Source of the DNA: a virus
Virus record (IMG/VR): IMGVR_UViG_3300028114_000020
Location: 1-49,039 of that record
DNA: 49,039 nucleotides
Direction: 5' to 3' (one strand)
The translations under genes were made by a program, and so were the position numbers. Under the pieces are notes generated by a model. That model saw only the letters and a program-made list of their open reading frames with translations, searched no databases and was not told the origin of the DNA. Shown piece by piece: positions 254 to 46,859 of the stretch (positions within the stretch are counted from its first letter, which is position 1; each line of letters begins with the position of its first letter).

Positions 254-1081
254 TATTAGATCTTCAATAAGAGTATCAACACCTGTCCTTTGTATACTAG
301 GTGCTTTTGCTGGTTGTTCTCTACCAGCACATGCACAAATACCACCAGGGAAAGATGCAAGCTTATCTAAAGCAGCATCAAAGGTATCCAATGCACCAGA
401 AAACGGTGTTTTAGTAATCAGTAAATTAGTTCTTTTTTCCTCTTCTTGTACTCTACGCTCTACTTCTTGTTCTCCAGCATCAACACCAGTCAATTTATCT
501 GCTGCTGAAGATGCTAGATATCCACCACCAATAGATGCTGCTAATGCAATTGTGCCACCAATAATACCGCCAGAAAGAGTTCCTGCTCCAGGAACAACAG
601 AACCATAAATTGCCCCAGCAGCTGCACCTGCTCCCAATGCACCTAATAATCCAGCACCAGCACCTACGCCAGCTTGAACATTTGTTTGTCCTGATTGTTT
701 TCTTTGTAAAAAGTCTATTCCAGTAAATGCAGCACTCAATAAAGGAATTGATTTTCCTACACCTGCTCTAGGTTTTGGTGATATTCCTATGCCTTTAACT
801 CCACTTGGTGATTTAGCACCTTTTAGACCTTTTGATAGTCCTGCCAGTCCAAGTGTTCCAAGAACTTTTTCTACTATTCCGTCTTTATTTTCTGAATCTT
901 GTTCCGACTGCTGAATTGCAGTGTAGGTTTTTTGTCTTACTTCTAAAAGTTGTGTTCTAGCACGAAGACGTTGTTCTTCAATTTGATTGGTGGTTGCAAC
1001 AGATTTAGAAAATAATTTTTCTAAATTAACACTATTTTTACTTGCAGATGAAGCAGCTTGTAATACTCTTTCTAAATTCAT
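1..1081 (-). CDS. Partial phage structural protein with Gly/Ala-rich hydrophobic core and Pro/Thr repeats
   Basis: The reading frame opens at an ATG at 1081 and runs off the left edge with no stop, so at least 360 residues are visible. It overlaps the end of the preceding gene by 4 bases (ATGA), which points to translational coupling. The N-terminal part (about 1-75) is charged and helical. A Gly/Ala-rich hydrophobic stretch follows (about 125-200). The protein then becomes rich in Pro, Lys and Thr, with two identical 42-residue repeats (PNKPKTNP, PKAPPTPKTDPGTGTGD). The position after gp26 and a lysozyme-bearing protein suggests a tail or baseplate component. I do not recognise a specific T4 counterpart. 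The repeats touch the window edge, so their true copy number is unknown. Confidence 0.7.
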   Translation of the reverse strand, partial: MNLERVLQAASSASKNSVNLEKLFSKSVATTNQIEEQRLRARTQLLEVRQKTYTAIQQSEQDSENKDGIVEKVLGTLGLAGLSKGLKGAKSPSGVKGIGISPKPRAGVGKSIPLLSAAFTGIDFLQRKQSGQTNVQAGVGAGAGLLGALGAGAAAGAIYGSVVPGAGTLSGGIIGGTIALAASIGGGYLASSAADKLTGVDAGEQEVERRVQEEEKRTNLLITKTPFSGALDTFDAALDKLASFPGGICACAGREQPAKAPSIQRTGVDTLIEDLIPKPKAPPTPKTDPGTGTGDTTGTGKQTPIEVIPYDPNKPKTNPKPKAPPTPKTDPGTGTGDTTGTGKQTPIEVIPYDPNKPKTN

Positions 1082-2754
1082 GCTCCGTATACTCCTAGAA
1101 TGAGATTAGAAGTAAATCTATCAACACTTTCAAAAGTAGTGTTGAATGCAATTTCACTTGATGCTGGAGCAGATTTTGGTCCTTGTGGTTTAACAACTGA
1201 TTGCTTACCAGGAATTGTTAGTAAAGCAACATCAGAACTTGCAGGTCTGCCAGTTGAACTTTGCTCACTAGGTTTACCATCAATCTTACTATTTTGAGCA
1301 GATTTTTTTGGTTTTGGACTTGTCTGTGCTCCTTGTGCTTCTCTAAGGTTTTGGTTGTAAATATCTAAACTTTGTTGCAATGTTCTCTTTGTTTGTCCAT
1401 AACGAGGTCCAAATCCAGCCCATTCCTCATTTAAAACACGAAGATCATTAATTGATAGTGGTTTTGATACATCTATTCTTCTTTTCTTTTTTGCAAGGAA
1501 TAATATCATTTTGTTCTGTAATTCTGGAGTAAGCTTTTCCTTAGTAGGGTCTAATCCCATCGCACTAACAACATTTTCTGGTTCCATAAATTGCCCAGCA
1601 CCAACTGCTGCAGATCTTCCACCAGAATAATATCCTCTACCTTCTTTTAGAAACTTTCTTTGCAGTTCAGCAACTTGATTTGCTGTTAGTTTAGATAAAT
1701 CTCCTCCATATTGAGAACCACCGAAGAATGTATTATATCCTTTTGCACTAGAAGTTCCTTCAACTTCCCTAACAGATGCAATAAACGCCTTTTCTTGTGG
1801 TGTATCTGCAATTACATCTGCAGCATTTACATCACCAGATATACCACCCCCACCGCCAGGATAATTCTTTGGTCTTTTTTTCATCAAATCTTCAACTGCA
1901 ACCTTTGGTTGTTCTTGTGCTTTTCCACCACCTCTTTGTGTTAGGATTTCATTAAAACGAGTTACGGTTGCTTGAAATCTATCAACATCCTCTGGATTAA
2001 TTACTGCAGATCCAGTCTGCTTTTTTATAAGTTCCTGTCTTCTTACATCAGCAGCACCCATTGTCAATGGTACTGCAGCAGCAAGTCCTAGCATCCCTAG
2101 TCCACCCATACCAGGTCTACGAGCGACTGTAGCACCTGCTGCGGCGTTTCCCCTACCACCAAGTGCCATTCTTGCTAGGACTAATCCAGAAACGATATTG
2201 ACGATCTCTGGGAGCATTGCAGTAACTGCAGCTCCAGCATTAACAGCAGCATCACCAAATCGACCTTCTGATAATGCTTTACCACTTAGAACTGCAGATA
2301 ACCCAGCAAACTTAGATCTTAGATCAAAAAACGATCCACGTAAACTAGTTAAATTATCTTCTTCTTCTTTATATAACTTCTTTTCTTCATTAAAATATTT
2401 CTTCTTGTTACTAATGTCTTCTCTAATCTGTGATTGAATTGAACCAAGATTATTGTTGACTTGTTCAAATTCTAATACAAGTTTTCCTAATGTGCGTATT
2501 GATTGTGGAGTAAGTGCTGATGCCTTTTCTTCTGCACTCATCAAAAGTTTATCATATTCCTTACTCATTCTCTGTGGAAGGAGAGATTTTATTCCTTCCA
2601 CAGGTTTTCCTGTAGCAACATCTGCTAAAGGATCACCATAACGATTGATCATTTTTTTAGCATAGTCTGATGCATTCATTTCACCAGGATGCCTATAAGT
2701 TCCAGCTGAAGGAACTCTAATTCCAAAATATTGATGTGGTTCTAAATTAGCCAT
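1078..2754 (-). CDS. Probable tail tape-measure/hub protein with lysozyme-like domain
   Basis: A 558-residue protein. Residues about 85-140 look like a coiled coil (KKKYFNEEKKLYKEEE). Residues about 145-240 are hydrophobic and Gly/Ala-rich. Residues about 330-460 resemble a lambda-endolysin-like (GH104-type) fold: VREVEGT...GYNTFFGG, then GRSAAVGAGQF. The tail is Pro/Ser/Lys-rich. Long, partly hydrophobic proteins with a muralytic domain placed just after small tail chaperones are typical tape-measure proteins, and T4 gp29 has that role. That assignment is inferred from context; the lysozyme-like region is what the sequence shows. The start overlaps the previous gene by 8 bases. Confidence 0.6.
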   Translation of the reverse strand: MANLEPHQYFGIRVPSAGTYRHPGEMNASDYAKKMINRYGDPLADVATGKPVEGIKSLLPQRMSKEYDKLLMSAEEKASALTPQSIRTLGKLVLEFEQVNNNLGSIQSQIREDISNKKKYFNEEKKLYKEEEDNLTSLRGSFFDLRSKFAGLSAVLSGKALSEGRFGDAAVNAGAAVTAMLPEIVNIVSGLVLARMALGGRGNAAAGATVARRPGMGGLGMLGLAAAVPLTMGAADVRRQELIKKQTGSAVINPEDVDRFQATVTRFNEILTQRGGGKAQEQPKVAVEDLMKKRPKNYPGGGGGISGDVNAADVIADTPQEKAFIASVREVEGTSSAKGYNTFFGGSQYGGDLSKLTANQVAELQRKFLKEGRGYYSGGRSAAVGAGQFMEPENVVSAMGLDPTKEKLTPELQNKMILFLAKKKRRIDVSKPLSINDLRVLNEEWAGFGPRYGQTKRTLQQSLDIYNQNLREAQGAQTSPKPKKSAQNSKIDGKPSEQSSTGRPASSDVALLTIPGKQSVVKPQGPKSAPASSEIAFNTTFESVDRFTSNLILGVYGA

Positions 2755-2935
2755 TAGCGTTTGCTGCTTGTGCTGCCTCTAACTTTTTCTTCTCCAAATA
2801 ATTCTCTAGATATTTGATATAAGTTTCCTTTTCCCAAGGGATCAAATCGTCAAGTTCAGATAAACTCCATCTATGATAATGCATCAACGCAAAGTTGTCT
2901 TCGTAATATGAAGTCATATCTGTATGATATAACAT
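2747..2935 (-). CDS. Small tail/baseplate assembly protein (gp51-position, chaperone T-like)
   Basis: A 62-residue protein. The N-terminal half is rich in Tyr, His and Trp (HYHRWSLSELDDLIPWEKETY). The C-terminal half is a charged helix. The pattern SLxELDxLIPWEKxxY resembles the C-terminal half of frameshift-made tail assembly chaperones. It sits exactly between gp26 and a tape-measure-like gene. Its ATG overlaps the gp26 stop (TAATG). A -1 slip a few codons upstream, in gp26, would read straight into this frame. It could be independently translated, frameshift-fused, or both. Confidence 0.6.
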   Translation of the reverse strand: MLYHTDMTSYYEDNFALMHYHRWSLSELDDLIPWEKETYIKYLENYLEKKKLEAAQAANANG

Positions 2936-3666
2936 TATGCGAAAAAATTTGTCAAACCCTCAATTAGGACATCAGTATCAACATTAGTATTGGGATTGGT
3001 TATTTTTGTCGAATATGATAACTTTGGCATACTTTCAAAAAACTTCTCAATCATTTGAAATTGAAAACTGTTTAGTCCTTCAAGGAACTCAACCCATTCT
3101 TTTTCAGTATAATCAGAATGTGACCATGCTTCATCTTCATTATATAACTGTTCAATGCATGAGATCACAGATTTGAATGCCCTATCAATCTTATCCAGAT
3201 TTGTTCCAGACTTAGTAACAGAAAAATTATTTTCAACAAATTGCTGCATGGAAGGATATTTCATCTTCATATTCAGCCCATCACCAAGATCAATAATATC
3301 AGCGTGTCCTTCAGGAACAACGAGTTTTACTTCGTTGATTTTGACTGTTAATGGAACTTGAGTTTCTCCATCATCAGTACAAGTAACTAGAAGTTCTACA
3401 CTTTCACCCACAGACTTGCTGCGAATATTCAAGAAAAGGTATTCAAGTTCAAAACTAGGAAGATCATCAACTTTGATACCACGAGTAAGAACACAGGATT
3501 TTAAAACATCTTTTACAGCGTTCAAAATATCCTTTTCATTACCACTCTCAAGTGCAATCAGAAGAACTTTCTCTTCCTTTACAAGAAATGGTCGATATTT
3601 AATTGATTTACCAGTAGAAATAAGATCTAGTTCAAATGTAGGAGTAACAACTTTAGGTAATGGCAT
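2935..3666 (-). CDS. 26: gp26-like baseplate hub / tail assembly protein
   Basis: A 243-residue protein of the T4 baseplate-protein family (gp26 type). The N-terminus MPLPKVVTPTFELDLISTGK and the region KYRPFLVKEEKVLLIALES are hallmarks of the family in marine T4-like phages. In T4, gp26 helps form the baseplate hub. In this layout it may act as a tail assembly chaperone, because a small coupled gene and a tape-measure-like gene follow. It ends LTNFFA-stop, and the Phe-Phe codons form a T TTT TTC slippery heptamer (2941-2947). A CTAAATA late motif lies 22 bases upstream of the start. Confidence 0.8.
   Translation of the reverse strand: MPLPKVVTPTFELDLISTGKSIKYRPFLVKEEKVLLIALESGNEKDILNAVKDVLKSCVLTRGIKVDDLPSFELEYLFLNIRSKSVGESVELLVTCTDDGETQVPLTVKINEVKLVVPEGHADIIDLGDGLNMKMKYPSMQQFVENNFSVTKSGTNLDKIDRAFKSVISCIEQLYNEDEAWSHSDYTEKEWVEFLEGLNSFQFQMIEKFFESMPKLSYSTKITNPNTNVDTDVLIEGLTNFFA
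2941..2947 (-). promoter_or_regulatory. Candidate -1 ribosomal frameshift site (T TTT TTC)
   Basis: The zero frame reads AAT TTT TTC GCA TAA at the end of gp26. The heptamer T TTT TTC matches the X XXY YYZ rule. A -1 slip gives CGC ATA ATG TTA, which is the frame of the next 62-residue gene with no stop between. Whether slippage happens is not shown by sequence alone. Confidence 0.45.
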
Positions 3667-3687: not shown

Positions 3688-3694
3688 TATTTAG
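3688..3694 (-). promoter_or_regulatory. T4-type late promoter motif CTAAATA
   Basis: CTAAATA on the minus strand, 22 bases before the gp26 ATG and overlapping the stop of the gene upstream. It matches the T4/cyanophage late -10 pattern (nATAAATA-like). Confidence 0.5.
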
Positions 3695-4515
3695 AATGGA
3701 TTTCTGACGTTCTTTCCAGAATCTGATCTCGCAACTACATCTTGATTAAAAGATCTGGAAGTTCTATCAGTATAATAGTAATCATACTTGAAGGTGACTG
3801 CCGTTTTGATCAACTCTGCATTACCATATGCTAATGGTGCAGCAACAATGTTAACTGGAAAAGCATCCATTAGATGGTATGTAATACTATTAGATATTCT
3901 AGAAGCATTGCTATTTTTAATAGTAGTATAGTCTTTAGATCTGTACTGTTTTGGAAGAATATCTCCACCAAATGTTGTGATCTGTATGTCACATTTATAA
4001 CTTAATGGGTATTTTAATTTCCTATAAGATGCTCTATCTTTTTTTCTTTCACCTGTACTTCTGCCATGCCCACCAGACGATAAAACTGTTGGCGAAATGT
4101 ATTCCATCCAAGCATTGAATACTTCATTTGTAAAATAATCTTTCTGAGAATAATATGTTAATGTAATATCTGGATATCTTCTATAAACTGCATAGTTTGA
4201 AGATACACCTTGCCTTAGTCCGTCAACTTGTGATGTTTGAATTTGTGATCCTGGTAGAACTGCTTCTGAACAAAATAGTGCTAGATAATTTCCTGGATTT
4301 TCTGACAAACTGTTTTCATAAAAACCATGTTGATTGATAAATCCAACTAAACTATTACCACCACCCTGGATTATAGCACTATTAAAATCTATCCATACAT
4401 CATATATGTTATTAAAAGCAGGTACAATACCAGATCCAGTTTTACTTGTTCTAGTATTGTACAGTTCATATGTTGGAATATAAATTCTATTTTTTGATCT
4501 TTCTAAATCGCTCAT
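3691..4515 (-). CDS. Tail-tube-fold baseplate protein (gp54-like tube initiator)
   Basis: A 274-residue protein. The C-terminal half (about 160-255: KYPLSYKCDIQITTFGGD ... TYHLMDAFPVNIVAAPL ... VTFKYDYYYTD) looks like the T4 tail-tube (gp19) beta fold. This fold is shared by tube proteins and by the tube-initiating baseplate proteins gp54 and gp48. Since gp48 is recognisable nearby on the other strand, gp54 is the most likely equivalent. It could instead be another tube-fold hub protein. It is divergently arranged with gp4, only 28 bases apart. Confidence 0.55.
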   Translation of the reverse strand: MSDLERSKNRIYIPTYELYNTRTSKTGSGIVPAFNNIYDVWIDFNSAIIQGGGNSLVGFINQHGFYENSLSENPGNYLALFCSEAVLPGSQIQTSQVDGLRQGVSSNYAVYRRYPDITLTYYSQKDYFTNEVFNAWMEYISPTVLSSGGHGRSTGERKKDRASYRKLKYPLSYKCDIQITTFGGDILPKQYRSKDYTTIKNSNASRISNSITYHLMDAFPVNIVAAPLAYGNAELIKTAVTFKYDYYYTDRTSRSFNQDVVARSDSGKNVRNPF

Positions 4516-12604: not shown

Positions 12605-13406
12605 GTGTTGTAATAATCTTTTTATGATTATTGGTTTGTAATGCTGCGCTAAACTTCAATGGTCTAGCAGTACACATGTTACATATTTGTTCAGGTTTAC
12701 TAGAGTTATCACATAATTTTACCAGATCCTCATCACTACAGTCAACTGGTAATCCATCACCAATAAAAGGTTTCCAAAAATCTTCTTCTAATTGTTCAGT
12801 AACATAAAGAAGTTCTTTTAAAAATGCTGCATTAGGACACTTCCAAAGTTTACCATCGAATAGTTGTGTATTGGGACAAGAGCACAACTCATAACTTTGT
12901 TTTATGTTATTATGAACATAAGGGTATACTTTACCGTTAGATTGTTTGATAGAACTGAACCATCGATCTTTGCCATCATGGTGTTCTGTAACAAAAACTT
13001 TGCTACTCTTTACCTTGTTGATGTTATCAATAACATCTGGAGTATGAATACTAACACGTAAAGACATGCCAGGATATTTTTCTAAGTCTTCTTCAATCCA
13101 TTCTCGGTTTTCTTCATTAAGAAGTATGCCATTTGTATACAGATAGACTGTCTCTGTATGCTCTAGACAAGCGTGTAAGATGTCTCGGCAGCGTACATTG
13201 AGCAATGGTTCCCCGCCAATGACTGAGACACGTTCTACGTCTATCCTGGGCAGGATGGTGTGGATATCTTGAATGAGTTTATCTGTATCTAATTTGCTAC
13301 CGGGGGCAAAATAATTACTGAAATGATTACATCCTTTACAACTTAGATTGCATCCAATCGTTGCACTGATATCAAGAATTTTTAATTTTGGGATTGTAAT
13401 AGGCAA
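12600..13406 (-). CDS. Radical SAM protein with C-terminal Cys cluster (paralog 2)
   Basis: 268 residues from a TTG at 13406, supported by an AGGAG nine bases upstream; no in-frame ATG precedes the cluster. CxxxCxxC is at C19, C23, C26 (GCNLSCKGC) and GGEP at 64-67. The C-terminus carries CSCPN, LWKCP and ICNMC, matching paralog 1, but the protein is shorter at both ends. It overlaps the end of the short carbamoyltransferase by 35 bases, so these genes are expressed together. The substrate is unknown. Confidence 0.83.
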   Translation of the reverse strand: MPITIPKLKILDISATIGCNLSCKGCNHFSNYFAPGSKLDTDKLIQDIHTILPRIDVERVSVIGGEPLLNVRCRDILHACLEHTETVYLYTNGILLNEENREWIEEDLEKYPGMSLRVSIHTPDVIDNINKVKSSKVFVTEHHDGKDRWFSSIKQSNGKVYPYVHNNIKQSYELCSCPNTQLFDGKLWKCPNAAFLKELLYVTEQLEEDFWKPFIGDGLPVDCSDEDLVKLCDNSSKPEQICNMCTARPLKFSAALQTNNHKKIITTQ

Positions 13407-14223
13407 GGTAAGCAGCTCCTATAGAAGTTCCACCATCATGTGCAACTGGTTCAACATACATTTTAACATCTTTTGGTAATTGTTTGCGAAGTTTGTAATT
13501 AACAACACAGTTCAAGAAACATCCACCAGATAATACAAGGTTCTTACACTTTGTTTTTTTGATTGCAAGATTAGCAAGTTCTAATGCACGTTCTTCCCAA
13601 AGAATTTGAATTGTATATGCAGCGTCTTCTTTTGATTTAAGTGCAAGATTACTTAGATCCACTTTATTAAATCCGTAAGATGACAATCCCATAACTTTAC
13701 CAGCATCATCTCGACCAAATCCACAAAACTTAGACACATATTCAAATAGTTTTCCTATACCATTTTCAGGTGGATCCCAATATTTTTTATGTATAGTTTT
13801 CCATTGAAATCTGTTGTCAGTCTTTGCATGAAAGATGGTTTCAATTTCTAGTTTATCTGCGATACTAGATCCATTACTATCAACTACAATACAAACTGCC
13901 TCATCAAATCTAGAACTATAAAATGCTCCTGCAGCATGTGCTAGATGATGAGACTTCTTGTAATCAACGTGTTTAGCATTGGGAAATGCACGTCTGAACC
14001 GTGCGATATCTCTTGCGCTAAGCATATTTTTTTCAGCTCCAACCCAATGAGCATCAACTGTTGCAATCACATCAACATCAGATACATAATCTACAAGATC
14101 TTTGACAATATAATCAAGTTTTTTTCTTGTAATTCTTTCTGCTTCCAAATAAAAATCTACTTGCCCATCTTTGAGTAAGCAAATAGATCCATTATTGGAA
14201 AGATTTATTCCTAAGATATTCAT
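13372..14223 (-). CDS. NodU/CmcH-type carbamoyltransferase lacking the C-terminal domain
   Basis: 283 residues that align with the N-terminal half of the next carbamoyltransferase: MNILGINLSNNGSI, a LEAERITRKK segment, HHLAHAAGAFYSS (metal-binding His), VMGLSSYG and LVLSGGCFLNCVVNY, then HDGGTSIGAAYLAYYNPK. It ends there. The YrdC-like carbamoyl-adenylate domain (GRSEAGPRALGNRS in the partner) is absent, so it may need the full-length copy, act as a kinase-like partial enzyme, or be a decayed duplicate. It starts within the stop of the partner gene (ATGA overlap). Confidence 0.85.
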   Translation of the reverse strand: MNILGINLSNNGSICLLKDGQVDFYLEAERITRKKLDYIVKDLVDYVSDVDVIATVDAHWVGAEKNMLSARDIARFRRAFPNAKHVDYKKSHHLAHAAGAFYSSRFDEAVCIVVDSNGSSIADKLEIETIFHAKTDNRFQWKTIHKKYWDPPENGIGKLFEYVSKFCGFGRDDAGKVMGLSSYGFNKVDLSNLALKSKEDAAYTIQILWEERALELANLAIKKTKCKNLVLSGGCFLNCVVNYKLRKQLPKDVKMYVEPVAHDGGTSIGAAYLAYYNPKIKNS

Positions 14224-15806
14224 TTGATTATAAGTTTCTGAACTTCGGGAAAATAAAGATACTTGATATCACTATTATAAAAAGTTTTCAATGCATCTTC
14301 TGGTGTCTCTACAAGTGGTTCGCCTGCAAGATTGAAAGATGTATTGAATAAAATAGGAACTCTTGTCTTTTCATAAAATGCTTCAATCAAATTATAGTAA
14401 TGTTCATTCTGTTCCTTAGTTAGCGTTTGAATTCTGCAGGTTTTATCTACATGAAGAATTGCAGGAATATGTTCCCAAGCATCAAGATGTGCATCAACAG
14501 CATACATCATAAAAGGACTTTCTTCCATACCTGCCATGTCAAACCACTCATGAACATATTCATTTAGAACTGTTCCCGCAAAAGGTCTAAATGTCTCACG
14601 TTTTTTAATTGTGTTGACGTGATCTTTTCCATTTGGATCTCTAGGATCATAGAGAATAGATCTGTTCCCCAATGCTCTAGGACCAGCTTCAGATCTTCCT
14701 TGAAACATTGCAACAATATTCTTCTCAGAAATTAGTCGTGCAACTTCACTATACGAAGTATCCTTTCCTTCAATGTGAGAAAGATCATAAGTTGGTCCTA
14801 AGTATAGTGTTTTCATAGTTGTCTTTTTATCAGAAACTAGCATTGCAGATCCAAATGCATGTCCTCCATCATATGACAGCGGATCAGCATATAAATTTAT
14901 GTCTAAAGATTTTAACACATTATAGTTGGAAACACAATTCAAAAAAAACCCACCAGAAACTACAACATTCTTTTTTCCAGAAAGTTCAACTGCCTTTTTG
15001 ATCATATAGATTGCATGTTTTTCAGCAGATTTCTGTAGATTGTATGCTAAATTTTCATTTGTAGTTTCTTCACCATAATATTTTGTCCATCCAGTATTAT
15101 CTCTAGGATAGATATCTTTACTACAAAAACTATGTCCGTATTCTTCGTTGAAAAGATTGACTGGACCAGAACCATAAGAAGATAATCCCATGGTTTTACC
15201 AGCTTCAATTTCATCAAATCCACAATATCCAGAAACACATCTAAATGCTTGCCCAATACTTACTCGATTGCTGAATAAGTTGTTGCCGTCCCAAAAAGGT
15301 TTGTCAATTTTTTCACATAATGCACGATTATAAAAACAAGAATAGTGTTTGAATAGTGAAACAAATTTTCCATTTACATAGTTATAAATGCTTTCTGTTT
15401 CACAAAATAAAGTCCCATTTTTTCGGATTACAGATCCTTTCCCATCCATCACAACACAAACGGCATCATCAAATCCAGATCCATAAAAAGCAGATGCTGC
15501 ATGACACTCATGATGATGATCAGAAAAATCTAAGACTTCTTTTACACCCCTAGAATGTAAAAGTTGTTCTAGTTTTTTTCTAGCAGTAACTCTTTCTAGA
15601 TTGTTTTTAAATGAATATCGCGTAAAACAATCAGAATAAACTGCAACATCAACAGTGCTATCAACAAACTTTTCACATAGTGCATATGCACCAACGTCAC
15701 GTTTTTTCCTAGTAACTCTTTCCTCTTCAAGATAAAATTCTAGATTACCATCATTGACTATTGCAATAGATCCATTCTTTGCTAAGTTTATTCCTAATAC
15801 TTTCAT
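14220..15806 (-). CDS. Full-length NodU/CmcH-type carbamoyltransferase
   Basis: About 528 residues from the ATG at 15806, which overlaps the thyX stop (TGATG). The N-terminal ASKHA-fold domain has HHHECHAASAFYGS, GKTMGLSSYG and VVSGGFFLNCVSNYNV. The C-terminal YrdC-like domain has MFQGRSEAGPRALGNRSIL, RPFAGTVL and LFNTSFNLAGEPLV. These enzymes transfer a carbamoyl group from carbamoyl phosphate to a hydroxyl, for example on sugars, antibiotics or nodulation factors. The acceptor is unknown here. It sits in one transcript with thyX and a radical SAM gene. Confidence 0.92.
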   Translation of the reverse strand: MKVLGINLAKNGSIAIVNDGNLEFYLEEERVTRKKRDVGAYALCEKFVDSTVDVAVYSDCFTRYSFKNNLERVTARKKLEQLLHSRGVKEVLDFSDHHHECHAASAFYGSGFDDAVCVVMDGKGSVIRKNGTLFCETESIYNYVNGKFVSLFKHYSCFYNRALCEKIDKPFWDGNNLFSNRVSIGQAFRCVSGYCGFDEIEAGKTMGLSSYGSGPVNLFNEEYGHSFCSKDIYPRDNTGWTKYYGEETTNENLAYNLQKSAEKHAIYMIKKAVELSGKKNVVVSGGFFLNCVSNYNVLKSLDINLYADPLSYDGGHAFGSAMLVSDKKTTMKTLYLGPTYDLSHIEGKDTSYSEVARLISEKNIVAMFQGRSEAGPRALGNRSILYDPRDPNGKDHVNTIKKRETFRPFAGTVLNEYVHEWFDMAGMEESPFMMYAVDAHLDAWEHIPAILHVDKTCRIQTLTKEQNEHYYNLIEAFYEKTRVPILFNTSFNLAGEPLVETPEDALKTFYNSDIKYLYFPEVQKLIIK

Positions 15807-16438
15807 CACCACTCAAGTGATTCGGATACCGCAGGAAACTGTTCCACAAATACTTTTTTACACTCATTTGCAATATCCATATGCTCCTTCTGAGTTCCAT
15901 TTGCAGAACGAAGATTAATATAATGAATCCATGACCTGACAGATCCAGTCATATAAATTTTTGTTTTTACTGCCAAAGGAAGCACAAAACGAGCGCATTC
16001 TTTTGCTACTCCTTGTTCCAAAAGAAAGTTGTACGTGTCTTGAGCGTCCTTAAACAGGTCTCTAATCATCTTATTCATTACGAATACTTTCTCCTCATCA
16101 ATATCATCAATAGAATTCTGACGATTTTTAGTATCTTGTCTACGAAGTTCTGGTAATGGTATTTCTTCTGCTAAAAGATTTGTATCAGCATAACGTTGTG
16201 AGAATTCTTGGAATGTAAAACTTCTATGTCGGAGCACTTGAGCCGCTATACCACGGTTCGTTTCAATTTCCAAAGTCATAAAAGCGTGCTCAAACACAGA
16301 CCAATGATTGTGCTTGATACAATAACGTAACAAACCTGTATAGTTTTCATTATCTTGATTTGCAGGATTAGAAACTCTAGCAATATATGCCATTGTTTTT
16401 TCTGCATCTGATGTCGCACTAATCAATCGCACTGTCAT
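15806..16438 (-). CDS. thyX: Flavin-dependent thymidylate synthase ThyX
   Basis: About 210 residues. The ThyX motif RHRx7S is complete at residues 70-80 (RHRSFTFQEFS), followed by QRY. The ATG at 16438 is preferred over an upstream TTG because AAAAAGGA lies 9 bases before it. ThyX makes dTMP from dUMP using FAD, NADPH and methylene-tetrahydrofolate and supplies thymidine for phage DNA. It overlaps the 60-residue gene by 20 bases and the carbamoyltransferase by 1. Confidence 0.95.
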   Translation of the reverse strand: MTVRLISATSDAEKTMAYIARVSNPANQDNENYTGLLRYCIKHNHWSVFEHAFMTLEIETNRGIAAQVLRHRSFTFQEFSQRYADTNLLAEEIPLPELRRQDTKNRQNSIDDIDEEKVFVMNKMIRDLFKDAQDTYNFLLEQGVAKECARFVLPLAVKTKIYMTGSVRSWIHYINLRSANGTQKEHMDIANECKKVFVEQFPAVSESLEW

Positions 16439-22162: not shown

Positions 22163-23221
22163 TCAAAGAGCATTTCCTCGTGGTAGTACTTCCTCTGGAA
22201 ATACAAAGTTCTCGTGAGGTTGATCTGCTGGTGCCATCCAAGCACGAAGTCCTTCATTCAAAAGAATATTCTTTGTATAGAATGTTTCAAATTCAGGATC
22301 TTCAGCAGCTCTAATCTCCTGACTTACAAAGTCATATGCTCTCAAATTAAAAGCAAGACCAATAATACCAATAGAAGCGGTCCAAAGACCCATGACAGGA
22401 ACAAATAGCATAAAGAAATGCAACCAACGCTTATTGCTAAACGCGATACCAAATATCTGCGACCAGAAACGGTTCGCAGTAACCATTGAATAAGTCTCTT
22501 CTTCTTGCGTAGGTTCAAATGCTTTGAATGTGTTTGCTTGTCCACTGTCCTCAAATAAAGTGTTTTCTACAGTTGCTCCGTGAATCGCACAGAGCAATGC
22601 TCCTCCCAGTATACCAGCAACTCCCATCATGTGAAAGGGATTGAGTGTCCAGTTATGAAAACCTTGTAGGAATAGCAGGAACCTGAAGATAGCAGCAACA
22701 CCAAAAGAAGGAGCAAAGAACCAGCTGGATTGACCCAGAGGATACATTAAGAATACCGAAACGAATACTGCAATCGGTCCAGAAAACGCAATAGCATTGT
22801 ACGGTCTAATCCCTACTAAACGAGCAATCTCAAACTGACGAAGCATAAATCCAATCAGAGCGAAAGCCCCGTGGAGTGCCACAAAAGCCCAGAGTCCCCC
22901 AAGTTGGAACCACCTGATAATATCCCCTTGAGACTCAGGACCCCAAAGTAGAAGAAGAGAATGACCCATAGCATCAGCAGGCGTTGACACAGCTGCCGTG
23001 AGGAAATTAGCACCCTCAAGGTAACTAGACGCCAACCCGTGGGTGTACCAACTTGTAACAAACGTTGTCCCAGTAAGCCAGCCACCAATTGCCAAATAAG
23101 CAGTGGGAAAAAGAAGTAGTCCAGACCACCCCACAAAGATAAAGCGATCTCGTTTAAGCCAGTCGTCCAAGACATCGAACCATCCTCTCTGAGTTTGTTG
23201 AGTAAATGTTGAAGAAACCAT
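22163..23221 (-). CDS. psbD: Photosystem II D2 protein
   Basis: 352 residues, full length for D2. It has [20 protein letters not shown] at the first helix, the [15 protein letters not shown] quinone/chlorophyll region, [22 protein letters not shown] with the His ligands, and the C-terminus [15 protein letters not shown]. In cyanophages, psbD is carried with psbA to keep photosystem II working during infection. Its ATG overlaps the stop of the 81-residue gene (TAATG), so both are made from one mRNA starting at the promoter near 23481. Confidence 0.98.
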
Positions 23222-24036: not shown

Positions 24037-25122
24037 TCAACCGATAGCAGGTGCAGTCAAAGCAACAGGAGTTGCTTCAGCAGCAGCAAGATCTAGGGGA
24101 AAGTTGTGGGCATTACGTTCATGCATCACTTCTAAACCGAGTCCAGCACGGTTAAGAACATCAGCCCACGTATTAATAACGTGTCCTTGATTATCCAGAA
24201 TACTCTGGTTGAAATTTAGGCCGTTAAGGTTAAAAGCCATGGTTGAAACACCAAGAGCGGTGAACCAGATGCCTACAACAGGCCAGGCAGCAAGGAAGAA
24301 GTGAAGTGAACGAGAGTTGTTGAACGAAGCATATTGGAAAATAAGTCTTCCAAAGTATCCGTGAGCAGCAACAATATTATAGGTCTCTTCTTCTTGACCA
24401 AACTTATATCCGTAGTTCTGACTTTCGGTTTCTGTGGTTTCACGAACCAATGATGAGGTTACCAAAGATCCATGCATCGCAGAAAATAGACTTCCTCCAA
24501 AGACACCAGCAACTCCAAGCATATGGAAGGGGTGCATTAAGATGTTATGTTCTGCCTGGAATACAAGCATATAGTTAAAGGTGCCTGAGATACCCAAAGG
24601 CATCGCATCACTAAAAGAACCTTGACCAAAAGGATACACTAAGAATACAGCAGAGGCAGCAGCAACAGGAGCACTGTAAGCAATACAGATCCAAGGACGC
24701 ATACCTAGTCTATAACTAAGTTCCCATTCTCGTCCCATGTAAGCATAGATGCCAATGAGGAAGTGGAAGACAACAAGTTGGAACGGTCCACCATTGTAGA
24801 GCCATTCGTCAACAGAAGCAGCTTCCCAAATTGGGTAGAAATGTAATCCGATTGCGTTGGAGCTTGGTACGACCGCTCCCGAGATAATGTTGTTTCCATA
24901 GAGTAAAGATCCAGCGACAGGTTCACGAATACCATCTATGTCCACAGGAGGAGCACCGATGAAGGCAATAATAAAGCAAGTTGTAGCAACTAATAAAGTT
25001 GGAATTCCCAATACACCAAACCAACCAACATATAAACGGTTGTTAGTTGAGGTTACCCATTCACAGAAATCGTTCCATAAGTTAGTAGTATTAGAGCGTG
25101 TAGCAATTGTAGCAGTAGTCAT
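24037..25122 (-). CDS. psbA: Photosystem II D1 protein
   Basis: 361 residues from [16 protein letters not shown] at 25122. The frame is open 33 codons further upstream, but those residues do not resemble D1 and lie in the leader. All five helices are present, with [19 protein letters not shown]-like, [27 protein letters not shown], the [22 protein letters not shown] region and the mature C-terminus [12 protein letters not shown]. The processing extension ends ALTAPAIG. It replaces photodamaged host D1 during infection. No intron interrupts it. It has a sigma-70 promoter, a structured leader and a strong terminator. Confidence 0.99.
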
Positions 25123-25144
25123 TGAATTAAAAGGGTAGTTATGA

Positions 25145-25196
25145 GTTCGGGGGAACGAACTGTTGGCAGTATTCCTACACCACCCTCCAGTGTAGG
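25145..25196 (-). promoter_or_regulatory. Two hairpins in the psbA 5' leader
   Basis: Hairpin 1: CCTACAC and GTGTAGG (25174-25180, 25190-25196), a 7-bp stem whose minus-strand loop is TGGAGGGTG. Hairpin 2: GTTCG/CGAAC (25145-25149, 25156-25160), a 5-bp stem. Both lie between the promoter and the ATG. The GGAGG in the loop is about 60 bases from the ATG, so it is not a normal ribosome site. Confidence 0.6.
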
Positions 25197-25276
25197 TAGA
25201 AAGACGTATTTCAATTCCCATAGGTCTTGGTTAGCGGGAATGTGAGGAATCGTAAAGTTTTGTCTTCATTTCCTAA

Positions 25277-43142: not shown

Positions 43143-43145
43143 GAG

Positions 43146-43221
43146 TCCGAACGCTGAGATTTGAACTCAGATTATTCCGCTTCCCAAAAGCGGTGCCATG
43201 ACCAAGTTAGGCGACGTTCGG
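43146..43221 (-). tRNA. tRNA-Pro (UGG)
   Basis: 76 bases. Acceptor CCGAACG/CGTTCGG, anticodon arm CCGCT-TTTGGGA-AGCGG (anticodon TGG, G37) and T arm CTGAG-TTCAAAT-CTCAG. CCA is not encoded. Confidence 0.92.
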
Positions 43222-43338
43222 TTATTCTTTGAAGTGTTCTATTCTATGACAGTTAGAACATAAGACTTCGCATTTACTAAGTTCTTTTAGAACATTCTTC
43301 CAAGATCTAAATCTTGCAATTTCAGAAAGATTATGGTA
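43222..43338 (-). pseudogene. C-terminal remnant of an HNH endonuclease
   Basis: The frame ends at 43222 and reads YHNLSEIARF, then SWKNVLKELSKCEVLCSNCHRIEHF. This matches the C-terminal half of the HNH family with KCxVxCANCHRxxH, while the N-terminal half with the catalytic His is missing. It abuts tRNA-Pro on one side and overlaps the truncated 43-residue gene on the other. Confidence 0.72.
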
Positions 43339-43418
43339 CGAATAATTGCTATGCGATCTGCTTCATGATTGTTATCAGAAGATTTTTCACCTAATGCTTT
43401 ACACCAAAGTTTCCACAT
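43287..43418 (-). CDS. Truncated small phage protein (MWKLW family)
   Basis: 43 residues. MWKLWCKALGEKSSD and HEADRIAIIRT resemble a widespread cyanophage microprotein family that normally ends in a transmembrane segment after IIRT. Here the end is IIFLKLQDLDLGRMF, taken from the HNH remnant read in another frame. Its ATG overlaps the upstream stop (TAATG). Probably a broken gene. Confidence 0.6.
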   Translation of the reverse strand: MWKLWCKALGEKSSDNNHEADRIAIIRTIIFLKLQDLDLGRMF

Positions 43419-43678
43419 TAACGAATTTCAAATTCAAGTTTTTTAACTTTTCGTTGACGTTTTGCCTCTTGAAAAGCGAGGTCATCTTGACTCAGTATAC
43501 CAGAATTTTTTTTCTTTGTCAACCCTTCTATGATAACAATCTGCGAAAGATCTACTGCAGAAATTTTATCATTATAAATTGTTGCTTGATTTGGACATCC
43601 ACAAACGATCCATTTTGAGGAGTTTGTTAACTCCTTGTTACAAGTTTTGCAACGTATTGTCAGTGTGTTTAAATTCAT
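43418..43678 (-). CDS. Small Cys-rich phage protein
   Basis: 86 residues. IRCKTCNKELTNSSKWIVCGCPN holds CxxC and CxC, which could bind one zinc, then DKISAVDLSQIVII and a basic tail. Similar small zinc proteins are common in cyanophages. Overlaps both neighbours (40 bases with the upstream gene). Confidence 0.7.
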   Translation of the reverse strand: MNLNTLTIRCKTCNKELTNSSKWIVCGCPNQATIYNDKISAVDLSQIVIIEGLTKKKNSGILSQDDLAFQEAKRQRKVKKLEFEIR

Positions 43679-43844
43679 TTAAGGTTTTAAAATATTCTTT
43701 ACTTGCAATTTTAAGAGTATATCCAGGATAGAATTTTTTTACAATACTACCAATACCCATTGTAGTAATGGCACTATCACAAAGTACCCATACAGTTTTT
43801 TCATTAGTGTCCACTACATGTGGAAGAGGAAATTTAGTTTTCAT
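43638..43844 (-). CDS. Small phage protein
   Basis: 68 residues: FPLPHVVDTNEKTVWVLCD, then GSIVKKFYPGYTLKIAS. No domain recognised. It shares 11 bases with the upstream gene and 41 with the next one, so it is real only if the compact overlaps are accepted. Confidence 0.6.
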   Translation of the reverse strand: MKTKFPLPHVVDTNEKTVWVLCDSAITTMGIGSIVKKFYPGYTLKIASKEYFKTLNEFKHTDNTLQNL

Positions 43845-44346
43845 AAGTAAATGTTTTGTTTTTCACTTTAGTGTCAAATTCACCAGTACGTCCAGGTTTC
43901 ATTTTGCCAACCTTAACATTTTTTCCTTTCCCTGGCCAAGATGTTTTAGAAGTTCCAGTAAGACTTGCACCACCCTTTCCTTTTTTTTGAACTAAAACGG
44001 AATCTTGATCATACTTAGCACCAAGTTTAGCAACTGCCTTTTTAAACTTTTTTTTACTTTTCTTTCCAGATGAAATTACATAAGACTTTTCAGAAACTTT
44101 TTTCTCATCTTTAGTGCCAGGATTTTCTGTATATCTTCCTTTTACTTTTGTTGGACCAGGAAGACCAGCACCACGAATGTCTTTTGTTAATTGCTTGGAT
44201 CGTGCTTTGTTTTGAGACTTAGACTTATCACCTCTTTCGGCAGACATGATTGCCATGCCACCTTTGTCTGATTTAGATTTTACACGATTGAGTGAAGTCT
44301 CTTGAATACACTGACATTCTAGCATAAACTCAGCAAAATTTTTCAT
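43834..44346 (-). CDS. Conserved basic phage protein
   Basis: 170 residues, about a third Lys, Gly and Ser. KGGMAIMSAERGDKS, then DIRGAGLPGPTKVKGRY and SWPGKGKNVKVGKMKPGRTG recur in related cyanophage proteins. A TATAAATA motif lies upstream, so it is probably late. Possibly nucleic-acid-binding or virion-internal; no enzymatic motif. Confidence 0.72.
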   Translation of the reverse strand: MKNFAEFMLECQCIQETSLNRVKSKSDKGGMAIMSAERGDKSKSQNKARSKQLTKDIRGAGLPGPTKVKGRYTENPGTKDEKKVSEKSYVISSGKKSKKKFKKAVAKLGAKYDQDSVLVQKKGKGGASLTGTSKTSWPGKGKNVKVGKMKPGRTGEFDTKVKNKTFTYEN

Positions 44347-44377
44347 TTATTACTAATGCTTATACACCAATTTTATT

Positions 44378-44385
44378 TATTTATA
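44378..44385 (-). promoter_or_regulatory. T4-type late promoter TATAAATA
   Basis: A perfect TATAAATA on the minus strand directly beside the 3' end of tRNA-Val and about 32 bases before the 170-residue gene. Confidence 0.6.
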
Positions 44386-44457
44386 TGGGCGATGACGGGA
44401 TTGAACCGCCTACATACTCGGTGTAAACGAGGCACTCTACCGCTGAGTTAATCGCCC
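44386..44457 (-). tRNA. tRNA-Val (UAC)
   Basis: 72 bases. Acceptor GGGCGAT/ATCGCCC, anticodon loop TTTACAC (anticodon TAC), T arm GGCGG-TTCAATC-CCGTC. CCA not encoded. Confidence 0.92.
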
Positions 44458-44460
44458 AAG

Positions 44461-44532
44461 CTCCACAACCTGGATTCGAACCAGGGACAAAGTGATTAAC
44501 AGTCACCGACTCTACCGCTGAGCTATTGTGGA
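44461..44532 (-). tRNA. tRNA-Asn (GUU)
   Basis: 72 bases. Acceptor TCCACAA/TTGTGGA, anticodon loop CTGTTAA (GTT), T arm CCTGG-TTCGAAT-CCAGG. CCA not encoded. Confidence 0.93.
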
Positions 44533-44537
44533 ATAAA

Positions 44538-44606
44538 GAAAGTTACTGGACTTACACCAGTTACGAGGGCATTATCTGCTTGTCTTGATTCTTTGACTTA
44601 ACTTCC
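44538..44606 (-). other. tRNA-like element, possibly decayed
   Basis: GGAAGTT and AACTTTC (one G-T) can form an acceptor stem, and ACTGG-TGTAAGT-CCAGT a T arm. The middle lacks a good anticodon arm and the T loop lacks TTC. It may be a degenerate tRNA; amino acid cannot be named. Confidence 0.3.
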
Positions 44607-44613
44607 TTTCAAA

Positions 44614-44636
44614 GACCACTCAAAAAATGAGTGATC
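44614..44636 (-). terminator. Hairpin after the porin gene (weak terminator)
   Basis: CACTCA and TGAGTG (44617-44622, 44628-44633) form a 6-bp stem with a five-base loop; the following T run is short (TCTTTG). Confidence 0.4.
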
Positions 44637-44659
44637 TAACTCAACCTATGAGTAGTTTA

Positions 44660-45535
44660 TCAGAACTTGATACCTAGACCAGTTGTAAATACTGGACTAT
44701 AAGTTCCATTGGAACCACCATAGCTATTGGTAGCATTGGTAGTGGGAAACTTAACATCAGCAAAACCAACCAGAGAATCTGTAATGCGACTTTCAACACC
44801 CAGAGCAAACACAACTTGACCCTGTGAACCAACAGCAGACTGATAGTTAGAAGAAGTATTGTTTACGAAAGGAACTTGATAACCAACACCACCATAAACA
44901 TTTGCACGACTTACTTTAGTTCCATTAGCAAGAGTCTTGCGTGAGATGGAGTAATCATAAGTAGCAAGTGCTCCACCAGCAGCACCAATCTGTCCAGCAG
45001 GACTACCGACAAAGTTAGCATAAGGACGAACTGAAACATCATTACTCCAAACAGTCGCCACAGGGAAACGCGCTTGAACAGTAGCACCAGAAACAGTTCG
45101 GTTAGCACCATAACCATTACCATCAGTACCTTGCTTATTTACAAGAACACCAACACCAACATACTGACCAACTCCTTGTGCCTTACGAGCGGCAGCAACT
45201 TCAAGAGTCCTTACACGAACATTAGTAGCAGCAAGTTGCTTAGAGAACTCAGCACGAAGAGCAGCAGCAGTGCGGGCATCTTCAGCACTGGAGAACTCGG
45301 AAATGCGATCCAGGCAAGCATTCGTCAGAGCAGCCAGCTCAGCACGAGTAGCATCCTGAGCAGGCTTTAAAGTACCATTAGGATATCCAACAAGACAACC
45401 GTAACGAGCATTTAGATTGGTAATTGCCTGATATGCCCAGTTAGTGGGGGAAACATCAGAGAATTGTCCAGCAAATGCAGGAACAGTCATTGCAGAAACA
45501 GCAACTGCACTAGCAACAATAGATTTGATTTTCAT
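44660..45535 (-). CDS. SLH-domain outer-membrane porin-like protein (host-type)
   Basis: 291 residues. Signal peptide MKIKSIVASAVAVSAMTVPAFA, then an SLH domain (about 24-80: FSDVSPTNWAYQAITNLNARYGCLVGYPNGTLKPAQDATRAELAAL) and a helical linker. The C-terminal part is beta-barrel-like and ends with the outer-membrane signal GLGIKF. This is the plan of cyanobacterial SomA/SomB porins, though shorter. It is rare for a phage gene and was probably gained from a host. It could alter the infected cell surface; a virion role cannot be excluded. A CTAAATA late motif lies upstream. Confidence 0.85.
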   Translation of the reverse strand: MKIKSIVASAVAVSAMTVPAFAGQFSDVSPTNWAYQAITNLNARYGCLVGYPNGTLKPAQDATRAELAALTNACLDRISEFSSAEDARTAAALRAEFSKQLAATNVRVRTLEVAAARKAQGVGQYVGVGVLVNKQGTDGNGYGANRTVSGATVQARFPVATVWSNDVSVRPYANFVGSPAGQIGAAGGALATYDYSISRKTLANGTKVSRANVYGGVGYQVPFVNNTSSNYQSAVGSQGQVVFALGVESRITDSLVGFADVKFPTTNATNSYGGSNGTYSPVFTTGLGIKF

Positions 45536-45568
45536 AAGAATGTATTAAAAAATTACAAATACAAGATT

Positions 45569-45575
45569 TATTTAG
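45569..45575 (-). promoter_or_regulatory. T4-type late promoter motif CTAAATA for the porin
   Basis: CTAAATA on minus, about 34 bases before the porin ATG. Confidence 0.45.
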
Positions 45576-45576
45576 T

Positions 45577-45592
45577 GCCCAATTTTTTGGGC
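45577..45592 (-). repeat. GC-rich hairpin after tRNA-Gly
   Basis: GCCCAA and TTGGGC form a perfect 6-bp stem around four bases, one base after the end of tRNA-Gly. No T run follows, so it may be a processing or end-protecting structure. Confidence 0.5.
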
Positions 45593-45593
45593 A

Positions 45594-45665
45594 AGCGAAA
45601 TAGGAGATTTGAACTCCTGACGTTCTGCTTGGAAGGCAGACATTCTACCGCTGAATTAATTTCGC
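45594..45665 (-). tRNA. tRNA-Gly (UCC)
   Basis: 72 bases. Acceptor GCGAAAT/ATTTCGC, anticodon arm TCTGC-CTTCCAA-GCAGA (TCC), T arm AGGAG-TTCAAAT-CTCCT. Confidence 0.93.
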
Positions 45666-45668
45666 AAA

Positions 45669-45748
45669 TGTCGGTGAGAGGACTTGAACCTCCACGAACT
45701 AGTCACTGGAACCTAAACCCAGCGCGTCTACCATTCCGCCACACCGAC
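45669..45748 (-). tRNA. tRNA-Leu (UAG)
   Basis: 80 bases. Acceptor GTCGGTG/CACCGAC, anticodon arm CTGGG-TTTAGGT-TCCAG (TAG), a long variable region and T arm GAGG-TTCAAGT-CCTC. It is followed by tRNA-Gly after 3 bases, so the two are processed from one transcript. Confidence 0.92.
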
Positions 45749-45802
45749 AAAAAAGGGACTTACAAATTTCTCATGCCTGTTGCACTTCCTTCACACTTGA
45801 AC

Positions 45803-45831
45803 ATTATAGCATGGTTCCCCAAATCTGTAAA
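45803..45831 (-). promoter_or_regulatory. Sigma-70 promoter of the tRNA-Leu/Gly unit
   Basis: TTTACA (45826-45831), a 17-base spacer and TATAAT (45803-45808). It overlaps the last codons of the 2OG oxygenase gene: the TAA stop is part of the -10. Confidence 0.82.
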
Positions 45832-46328
45832 GACCTTCTTGGATATGGTGCAATAGAAGACAAATGAGTTATAGAATGGTTTTCTTCTTCTGTATTTATT
45901 ACTAATGTGCCTGGTTCAGGACAAATAACGTGTAAGTTTTCCTCTTTGTCTTCCCATAGAAATAATCCACCCCACTTATTATTCCATTCATTCAAATATA
46001 ATGTTGCACCAAATTTATAATTAGCATCACTATGCCATCGGATGCCAGAATTTTTAAGAAACACATTATAATTCATGGTAATTTTGTCTGCTTCTGGAAG
46101 CAACTTCAACAATTCAGTTTTTATTTTTCTTTCTGTAAAGGAAGAAACATCAGCAGAAAGACAAACTCCATGAAAATCATCTCCAAGTAATTCTTTATTC
46201 CATGTGGTTTGATTAATGGACCATGCACGACTAGGAAGCAACTTATCTATTTCATCGTTGCATAATGAAATCAATTCTTTTCTAAGGGAGTTCTTTATAA
46301 GTTTCATTTGGATTTCTAAAATATCCAT
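45804..46328 (-). CDS. Short 2OG-Fe(II) oxygenase
   Basis: 174 residues (a start at the eighth residue, MKLIKNSL, is also possible). The core reads RWHSDANYKFGATLYLNEWNN (HxD pair), GGLFLWEDKEENL, the distal His in ENHSITHLSS and the 2-oxoglutarate Arg in PRRSLQIW. Typical of small AlkB/P4H-like phage dioxygenases. Substrate unknown. Its 3' end serves as promoter for tRNA-Leu. Confidence 0.84.
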   Translation of the reverse strand: MDILEIQMKLIKNSLRKELISLCNDEIDKLLPSRAWSINQTTWNKELLGDDFHGVCLSADVSSFTERKIKTELLKLLPEADKITMNYNVFLKNSGIRWHSDANYKFGATLYLNEWNNKWGGLFLWEDKEENLHVICPEPGTLVINTEEENHSITHLSSIAPYPRRSLQIWGTML

Positions 46329-46387
46329 CTGAGTTACAATAGCAACTGGGTGGTATAGTACTGATATAATTTTCCTTAGTAAAGGAA

Positions 46388-46461
46388 CGTCTCAGGTAGG
46401 ATTCGAACCTACGACTCACGCTTTAGAAGAGCGTTACTCTAGTCCACTGAGTTACTGAGAC
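46388..46461 (-). tRNA. tRNA-Arg (UCU)
   Basis: 74 bases. Acceptor GTCTCAG/CTGAGAC, anticodon arm ACGCT-CTTCTAA-AGCGT (TCT), T arm GTAGG-TTCGAAT-CCTAC. Its first 10 bases overlap the stop end of the protein gene upstream. Confidence 0.93.
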
Positions 46462-46859
46462 ACGTACCATGGAGCAGTTAGTCTAATCTCACCTCCCAAT
46501 GCCTTACAGTCTTTAGTATAGCACACATTTTCGTCAACCGGTTTTTCGCTGTATCTGGGTTTGTATTTCCTGTCATAATCAGAAATAATACGATCATACT
46601 CCGGAGTTATATCATTTATTGCTCGATCTACATCTCTACCAATTCTTCTCTGAAGTTTTTCATCATCTTTGATTATAAACTCATTCAATATGGTTTGAGG
46701 AAAATATTTTCTTTGTATCTCATCTAAAATATCCCATAGATTATTTTCAGATATCTTAGTGCATTGCGAGAGGGTTGCTATCACTGCTGTCAATACAACT
46801 CCGATGATAGCATACTGTTTTATATCTGGTTTCTTCTTGCCAAAATTAAAGTTAACCAC
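46452..46859 (-). CDS. Small membrane-anchored phage protein (lysis-region)
   Basis: 135 residues starting at GTG with no clear ribosome site. An N-terminal NFNFGKKKPDIKQ is followed by one transmembrane helix (YAIIGVVLTAVIATLSQC) and a long polar part (EIQRKYFPQTILNEFII, DRAINDITPEYDRII). It lies between tRNA-Arg, whose 5' end it overlaps, and the lysozyme-like gene. An inner-membrane spanin or holin-helper is possible but not shown. A copy of its N-terminus persists at 20459-20527. Confidence 0.65.
   Translation of the reverse strand: MVNFNFGKKKPDIKQYAIIGVVLTAVIATLSQCTKISENNLWDILDEIQRKYFPQTILNEFIIKDDEKLQRRIGRDVDRAINDITPEYDRIISDYDRKYKPRYSEKPVDENVCYTKDCKALGGEIRLTAPWYVSQ

Follow-up and report, generated by a model that had tools for sequence, protein, structure and literature searches.

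The locus analyzed here raises the question of how the 3' end of gp26 is read in a T4-like phage. Either gp26 and the following small open reading frame (ORF), gp51, are translated as two separate proteins, or some ribosomes shift by -1 at the end of gp26 and make a fusion of the two. The window, by which we mean the whole stretch of DNA analyzed, is a 49-kb virus record (IMGVR_UViG_3300028114_000020, 49,039 nucleotides). Two of its genes match the photosystem II D1 PHROG (phrog_182), and because of these two matches we assign the window to a cyanophage. The two genes are probably psbD and psbA:

22163-23221 and 24037-25221: photosystem II reaction-centre genes, both matching phrog_182.

Elsewhere in the window, two adjacent ORFs (13372-15812) match a Nol-like carbamoyltransferase PHROG, one as an N-terminal part and one in full, which may reflect a duplication. 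Six tRNA genes (Pro, Val, Asn, Gly, Leu, and Arg) are clustered at 43145-46462, with none for Phe.

The features at the end of gp26 are the following:

2935-3666, minus strand: gp26, the putative short form of the tail assembly chaperone (TAC-N), 243 residues, stop codon TAA at 2935-2937 included; matches Pfam T4_baseplate (2.4e-64) and phrog_150 (3e-71).
2941-2947, minus strand: slippery heptamer T TTT TTC in the phase of gp26.
2747-2941, minus strand: -1 frame extension of 64 residues (RIMLYHTD..., then stop), the predicted TAC-C part of a 306-residue fusion; open in relatives and matching phrog_634 (3e-20).
2747-2935, minus strand: gp51-like ORF of 62 residues with its own ATG; matches phrog_634 (baseplate hub assembly catalyst).

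The PF12322 profile covers residues 9-243 of gp26 (2.4e-64), which places the protein in the T4 gp26 family. An earlier reading of the window from its sequence only had noted that the gene ends in AAT TTT TTC GCA TAA (minus strand), with T TTT TTC as a slippery heptamer, and that a -1 slip would enter the frame of the 62-residue ORF without meeting a stop. Both statements are correct. Reading in the -1 frame meets no stop from about 22 nt upstream of the gp26 stop until 2747, which is 188 nt past it, and the predicted fusion comprises 242 residues of gp26 and 64 new ones, i.e. 306 in total, with ...K-F-F-R-I-M-L-Y... at the junction. The ATG of the 62-residue ORF shares bases with the gp26 stop (TAATG).

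The same reading knew of no description of such a frameshift for gp26 of T4-like phages, but the proposal had in fact been published. Vladimirov, Gautam and Davidson (Virology 2022, 566:9-15), as cited in PMC10885494 and PMC12846349, identified the tail chaperone genes gp26/gp51 of T4-like phages, and the passage of PMC12846349 that cites them speaks of known poly-T slip sites in the TAC-N genes of these phages. The gp26 and gp51 of the window belong to the same protein family. Hence, the central frameshift claim is already published and the window is a further member. In that earlier work frameshifting is said to be apparently conserved in several T4-like groups, genes 26 and 51 being separate in T4.

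The heptamer was rejected as evidence on its own, since TTTTTTC occurs at chance frequency within the window (46 times, versus 37 +/- 6 expected). For this reason the case is carried by its conservation. The relatives share ancestry, so that the counts given below overstate the number of independent events, and we give no P value. In a first survey, the heptamer and its phase were invariant in 84 of 84 loci whose gp26 is 42-91% identical. The heptamer always lies exactly one codon ahead of the gp26 stop, which itself varies between TAA, TAG, and TGA. More distant gp26 relatives were collected by single-protein searches. The 179 distinct loci compared span marine T4-like phages, Straboviridae, and phages of Rhizobium, Ochrobactrum, and Stenotrophomonas. 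A phased T TTT TT(C/T/A) is kept in 162 of them. Among the 93 non-redundant relatives that most resemble the window, all have the codons TTT TTC, even though TTC makes up only 25% of their Phe codons, and in all 93 the preceding codon ends in T, compared with only 43% of codons in general. This T-ending codon encodes Ser, Asn, Asp, Ala, or Gly. The in-phase TTTTTTC is also present in the seven named cyanophages that were checked. Heptamer and phase are thus both kept across the gp26 3' ends of relatives, as the sequence-only reading would have it.

A few groups differ at this position. In Pelagibacter phage Mosig and one marine clade, the gp26 stop is located 21 nt further 3', but the heptamer keeps its place at the two Phe codons. 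The later stop is found in L084, L096-L098, L100, and about 10 more marine loci, and adds seven residues to the tail of the short form. One Stenotrophomonas phage record (L196, near 3241-3290), almost the same as another (L195), has five T instead of six, which destroys the end of gp26 and is likely a homopolymer sequencing error. In the Ackermannviridae (L091, L177-L194), the gp26-like gene ends without a canonical heptamer and has a conserved ATTTTCAT(T/C)TAA instead. The -1 frame, which is gp51-like, is open there, and a start codon near the junction is missing from most of these loci. Ribosomes possibly slip on UUUUC in a non-canonical way, unless a different mechanism operates. Vibrio phage D506 (L090, ~4150-4180), where gp26 ends in CTT TTC AAG TAA TGG without a heptamer and the -1 frame is open with an overlapping ATG, may be another non-canonical case.

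The frame downstream of the site is also informative. In each of the 159 relatives whose -1 frame could be followed as far as its stop, this frame runs on for 56-69 residues, whereas the +1 frame closes at a median of 10 codons. Of these 159 relatives, 68 have no ATG, GTG, or TTG among the first codons of the -1 frame. Start codons, or suitably placed Shine-Dalgarno sequences, are thus often absent near the junction, which explains why gp51 is annotated late or not at all. It is omitted from the annotations of metaG-MbCM1 and ACG-2014d. In L082, L199, L202, and L203, without a start codon near the junction, gp51 is either unannotated or begins some 50 nt too far 3', at an internal Met; their gp26/gp51 annotation should become a single joined CDS.

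In 88 of the 159 relatives the -1 frame does contain an ATG soon after the site, and the TAATG of the window is an example. Some gp51 might therefore be made independently from the overlapping ATG where there is one, in addition to the frameshift fusion. Such a contribution would complement frameshifting, and we regard it as possible, if rather unlikely: of the 85 non-redundant loci that have such an ATG, 78 lack a suitably placed Shine-Dalgarno sequence, and the location of the ATG in the frame varies by clade.

Upstream of the heptamer we identified a candidate stimulatory element:

2957-2961, minus strand: internal Shine-Dalgarno-like GAGGG, 9 nt ahead of the heptamer, proposed as a 5' frameshift stimulator from its predicted anti-Shine-Dalgarno pairing.

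The combination of GAGGG and TTTTTTC 6-12 nt further on occurs once in the window, at the end of gp26, where 0.1 occurrences are expected. Across the 93 window-like loci, the predicted pairing with the 3' end of the 16S rRNA just 5' of the heptamer is below -5 kcal/mol in 88%. The same threshold is passed by 48% after synonymous recoding, which shows that the protein motif E-G accounts for part of the signal, and by about 1% of background positions. The excess over recoding comes from the use of GAG at the element (78 of 93 loci, versus a usage of 32%). The 15 loci with GAA have GGG or GGA as the next codon in 14 cases (GGG in 11), and keep the purine-rich run available for pairing. In the group resembling Pelagibacter phages the signal is weaker (31%, versus 17% when recoded). 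Hence, a Shine-Dalgarno-like sequence about 10 nt 5' of the heptamer, as in signals of the dnaX type, is found in the window and in its relatives.

The same element could be given another role, in which gp26 and gp51 are two separate proteins, GAGGG holds the terminating ribosome so that it can re-initiate at TAATG by translational coupling, and the heptamer is incidental. In the window and its nearest relatives an ATG does share bases with the gp26 stop, and PMC5009743 notes that coupling can be helped by Shine-Dalgarno sequences close to the ends of genes. However, GAGGG lies more than 20 nt from the gp51 ATG, which is too far for ordinary initiation of gp51. The 68 relatives without a nearby start still have the heptamer, its phase, and the extension, and all 10 start-less relatives of the window-like group retain the GAGGG signal. 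In S-RIM2 and S-RIM8, which lack an early start, gp51 is annotated about 50 nt late at the cost of conserved residues. Re-initiation also leaves the presence of TTTTTTC in 93 of 93 relatives unexplained, and we consider it very improbable as an account of this locus.

Frameshifting at the heptamer could also be favored by a structure in the mRNA that follows it:

2913-2933, minus strand: hairpin GUUAUAUC-AUACA-GAUAUGAC of 8 bp, 7 nt 3' of the heptamer, proposed as a 3' stimulator (-7.4 kcal/mol, z -2.9).

In the 93 window-like relatives, the 36 nt that start 5 nt past the heptamer have a mean folding energy of -8.3 kcal/mol, versus -3.0 for recodings synonymous in the -1 frame, and a mean z of -2.79 against these recodings. 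For comparison, two control regions downstream give z of +0.25 and +0.31, and one upstream gives -0.7. The second group, resembling Pelagibacter phages, has a z of -1.69 in the hairpin region. The helices fall in several registers among relatives. In the largest class of helices (33 loci), one pair is seen as UA, AU, and GC, with the change on the 3' side altering the encoded residue (Glu, Val, or Ala), and another pair is seen as GU, UA, and UG. Along the gp26 tree the best covarying pair (UA/AU/GC) changes about seven times, with a single independent pair on supported branches. The covariation in these alignments is suggestive, and the excess of folding energy is the stronger argument. Folding in this region is weak in P-RSM4, S-RIM8, S-RIM2, and ACG-2014d, the first two being among the named phages with a weak hairpin or none. 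Hence, a stable hairpin 5-9 nt 3' of the heptamer, as in signals of the dnaX type, is present in the window and is reflected in the energy excess of the population; it is common in relatives, but neither universal nor required. In some tailed phages, seemingly no frameshift stimulators are involved, according to PMC5009743. We found no description of a conserved Shine-Dalgarno-like element and hairpin at the gp26 slip site in the literature searched.

Transcriptional slippage on the T run, which is 7-8 T long in some relatives, would leave some mRNA molecules a base longer or shorter and lead to fused and unfused messages translated normally, but is hardly credible given that the run is of six T followed by C in the window and most relatives, the codon phase is fixed, and the Shine-Dalgarno-like and hairpin signals are spaced as for ribosomal frameshifting.

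The genes on either side of the pair complete the description of the locus:

3691-4515, minus strand: tail-tube-family protein (gp19/gp54-like), just 5' of gp26; matches Phage_TTP_2 (2.8e-13) and the tail tube phrog_45 (2.5e-23).
1078-2754, minus strand: probable tape measure protein of 558 residues, overlapping the end of gp51 by 8 nt; assigned by position and orthologous loci.

The sequence-only reading had placed the pair next to a tape-measure-like gene, in the layout of the lambda G/GT chaperones. The layout is supported, since the order of tube-family gene, gp26, gp51, and probable tape measure gene (the last from orthologous loci) resembles the V-G-T-H order of lambda. As for the 558-residue protein, its position agrees with the claim and so do orthologous loci: tape-measure PHROGs are matched by the gene at the same position in two phages, RHph_I1_18 of Rhizobium and OC of Ochrobactrum. 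Its own matches give no tape-measure support, and we therefore call it a probable tape measure protein on its position and orthologous loci. Sequence searches of the PDB with gp26 and with the 558-residue protein returned nothing useful. The sequence and length of the 558-residue protein are highly variable among relatives, and its residues ~320-420 (FIASVREVEGT...YNTFFGG...AVGAGQF), which have a weak match to a PHROG of unknown function, look by eye like a lysozyme or transglycosylase. The structure of gp26 was predicted with AlphaFold from an alignment of the window protein with proteins of viral contigs (pLDDT 86). When the model was compared with the PDB, the HK97 tail assembly chaperone took ranks 1 and 2, with E values of 0.62 and 0.87 and probabilities of 0.41 and 0.75, which are not significant alone.

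Considering the invariant slip site and phase, the frequent loss of the gp51 start codon, the conserved candidate stimulators, and the lambda-like gene order, we are highly confident that a gp26-gp51 chaperone fusion is made by -1 frameshifting at T TTT TTC, as the sequence-only reading had proposed. In this mechanism, the tRNA-Phe on UUU in the P site and that on UUC in the A site would move back by one base onto UUU UUU, where both can re-pair. Strain on the ribosome would come from two sides, as in dnaX: from the anti-Shine-Dalgarno pairing 5' of it and from the hairpin 3' of it. The ribosomes that slip would bypass the UAA one codon further on and add the 64 residues of the gp51-like TAC-C, to give the long form of 306 residues; the others would add one more residue and stop, to give the short form. 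If the two forms act as lambda gpG/gpGT do, the gp26 portion would cover the tape measure protein, the gp51 portion would bring in the tube subunits, and both would be absent from the finished virion. The sequences show the slip site, its phase, the open frame, the frequent loss of the start codon, and flanking signals under selection; that ribosomes slip during infection, how often they do so, and that the products are chaperones is inferred.

PMC5009743 (2016) describes G-T frameshifting as widespread except in T4. Phage lambda gpG/gpGT uses a different heptamer at low efficiency (a ratio of 30:1), whereas loci of the window type have two conserved candidate stimulators. The signal also resembles that of dnaX of Escherichia coli, which has a Shine-Dalgarno-like element 5', an X XXY YYZ heptamer, and a hairpin 3'. 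However, the heptamer is A AAA AAG in dnaX and U UUU UUC in the window, and the -1 shift gives the shorter product in dnaX and the longer one in the window. T4-type phages (Tequatrovirus) also have both gp26 and a protein made of gp26 plus a tail, gp51, but from two divergently oriented genes and without a slip site. In the T4-type phage ECp13, gp51 consists of a gp26 paralogue followed by the gp51 tail, with phrog_150 matching throughout the protein and phrog_634 matching its last part. This gp51 thus appears, by its sequence, to be the same long form encoded by a separate gene without frameshifting.

A broader proposal, which we find plausible but hold with less than even confidence, is that marine T4-like cyanophages use a doubly stimulated signal like that of dnaX (internal Shine-Dalgarno, U UUU UUC, hairpin) to make the long form at a ratio far above that of lambda, and that T4 instead carries a gene duplicate in which the fusion is already built in. 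These results correct the common practice of annotating gp26 and gp51 of marine cyanophage genomes as two baseplate proteins, and named phages are now available for direct tests of chaperone frameshifting and of its stimulators. The comparison with T4 sets recoding against gene duplication as routes to the same protein pair and, if the proposal is true, a single lineage would set one protein ratio in both of these ways.
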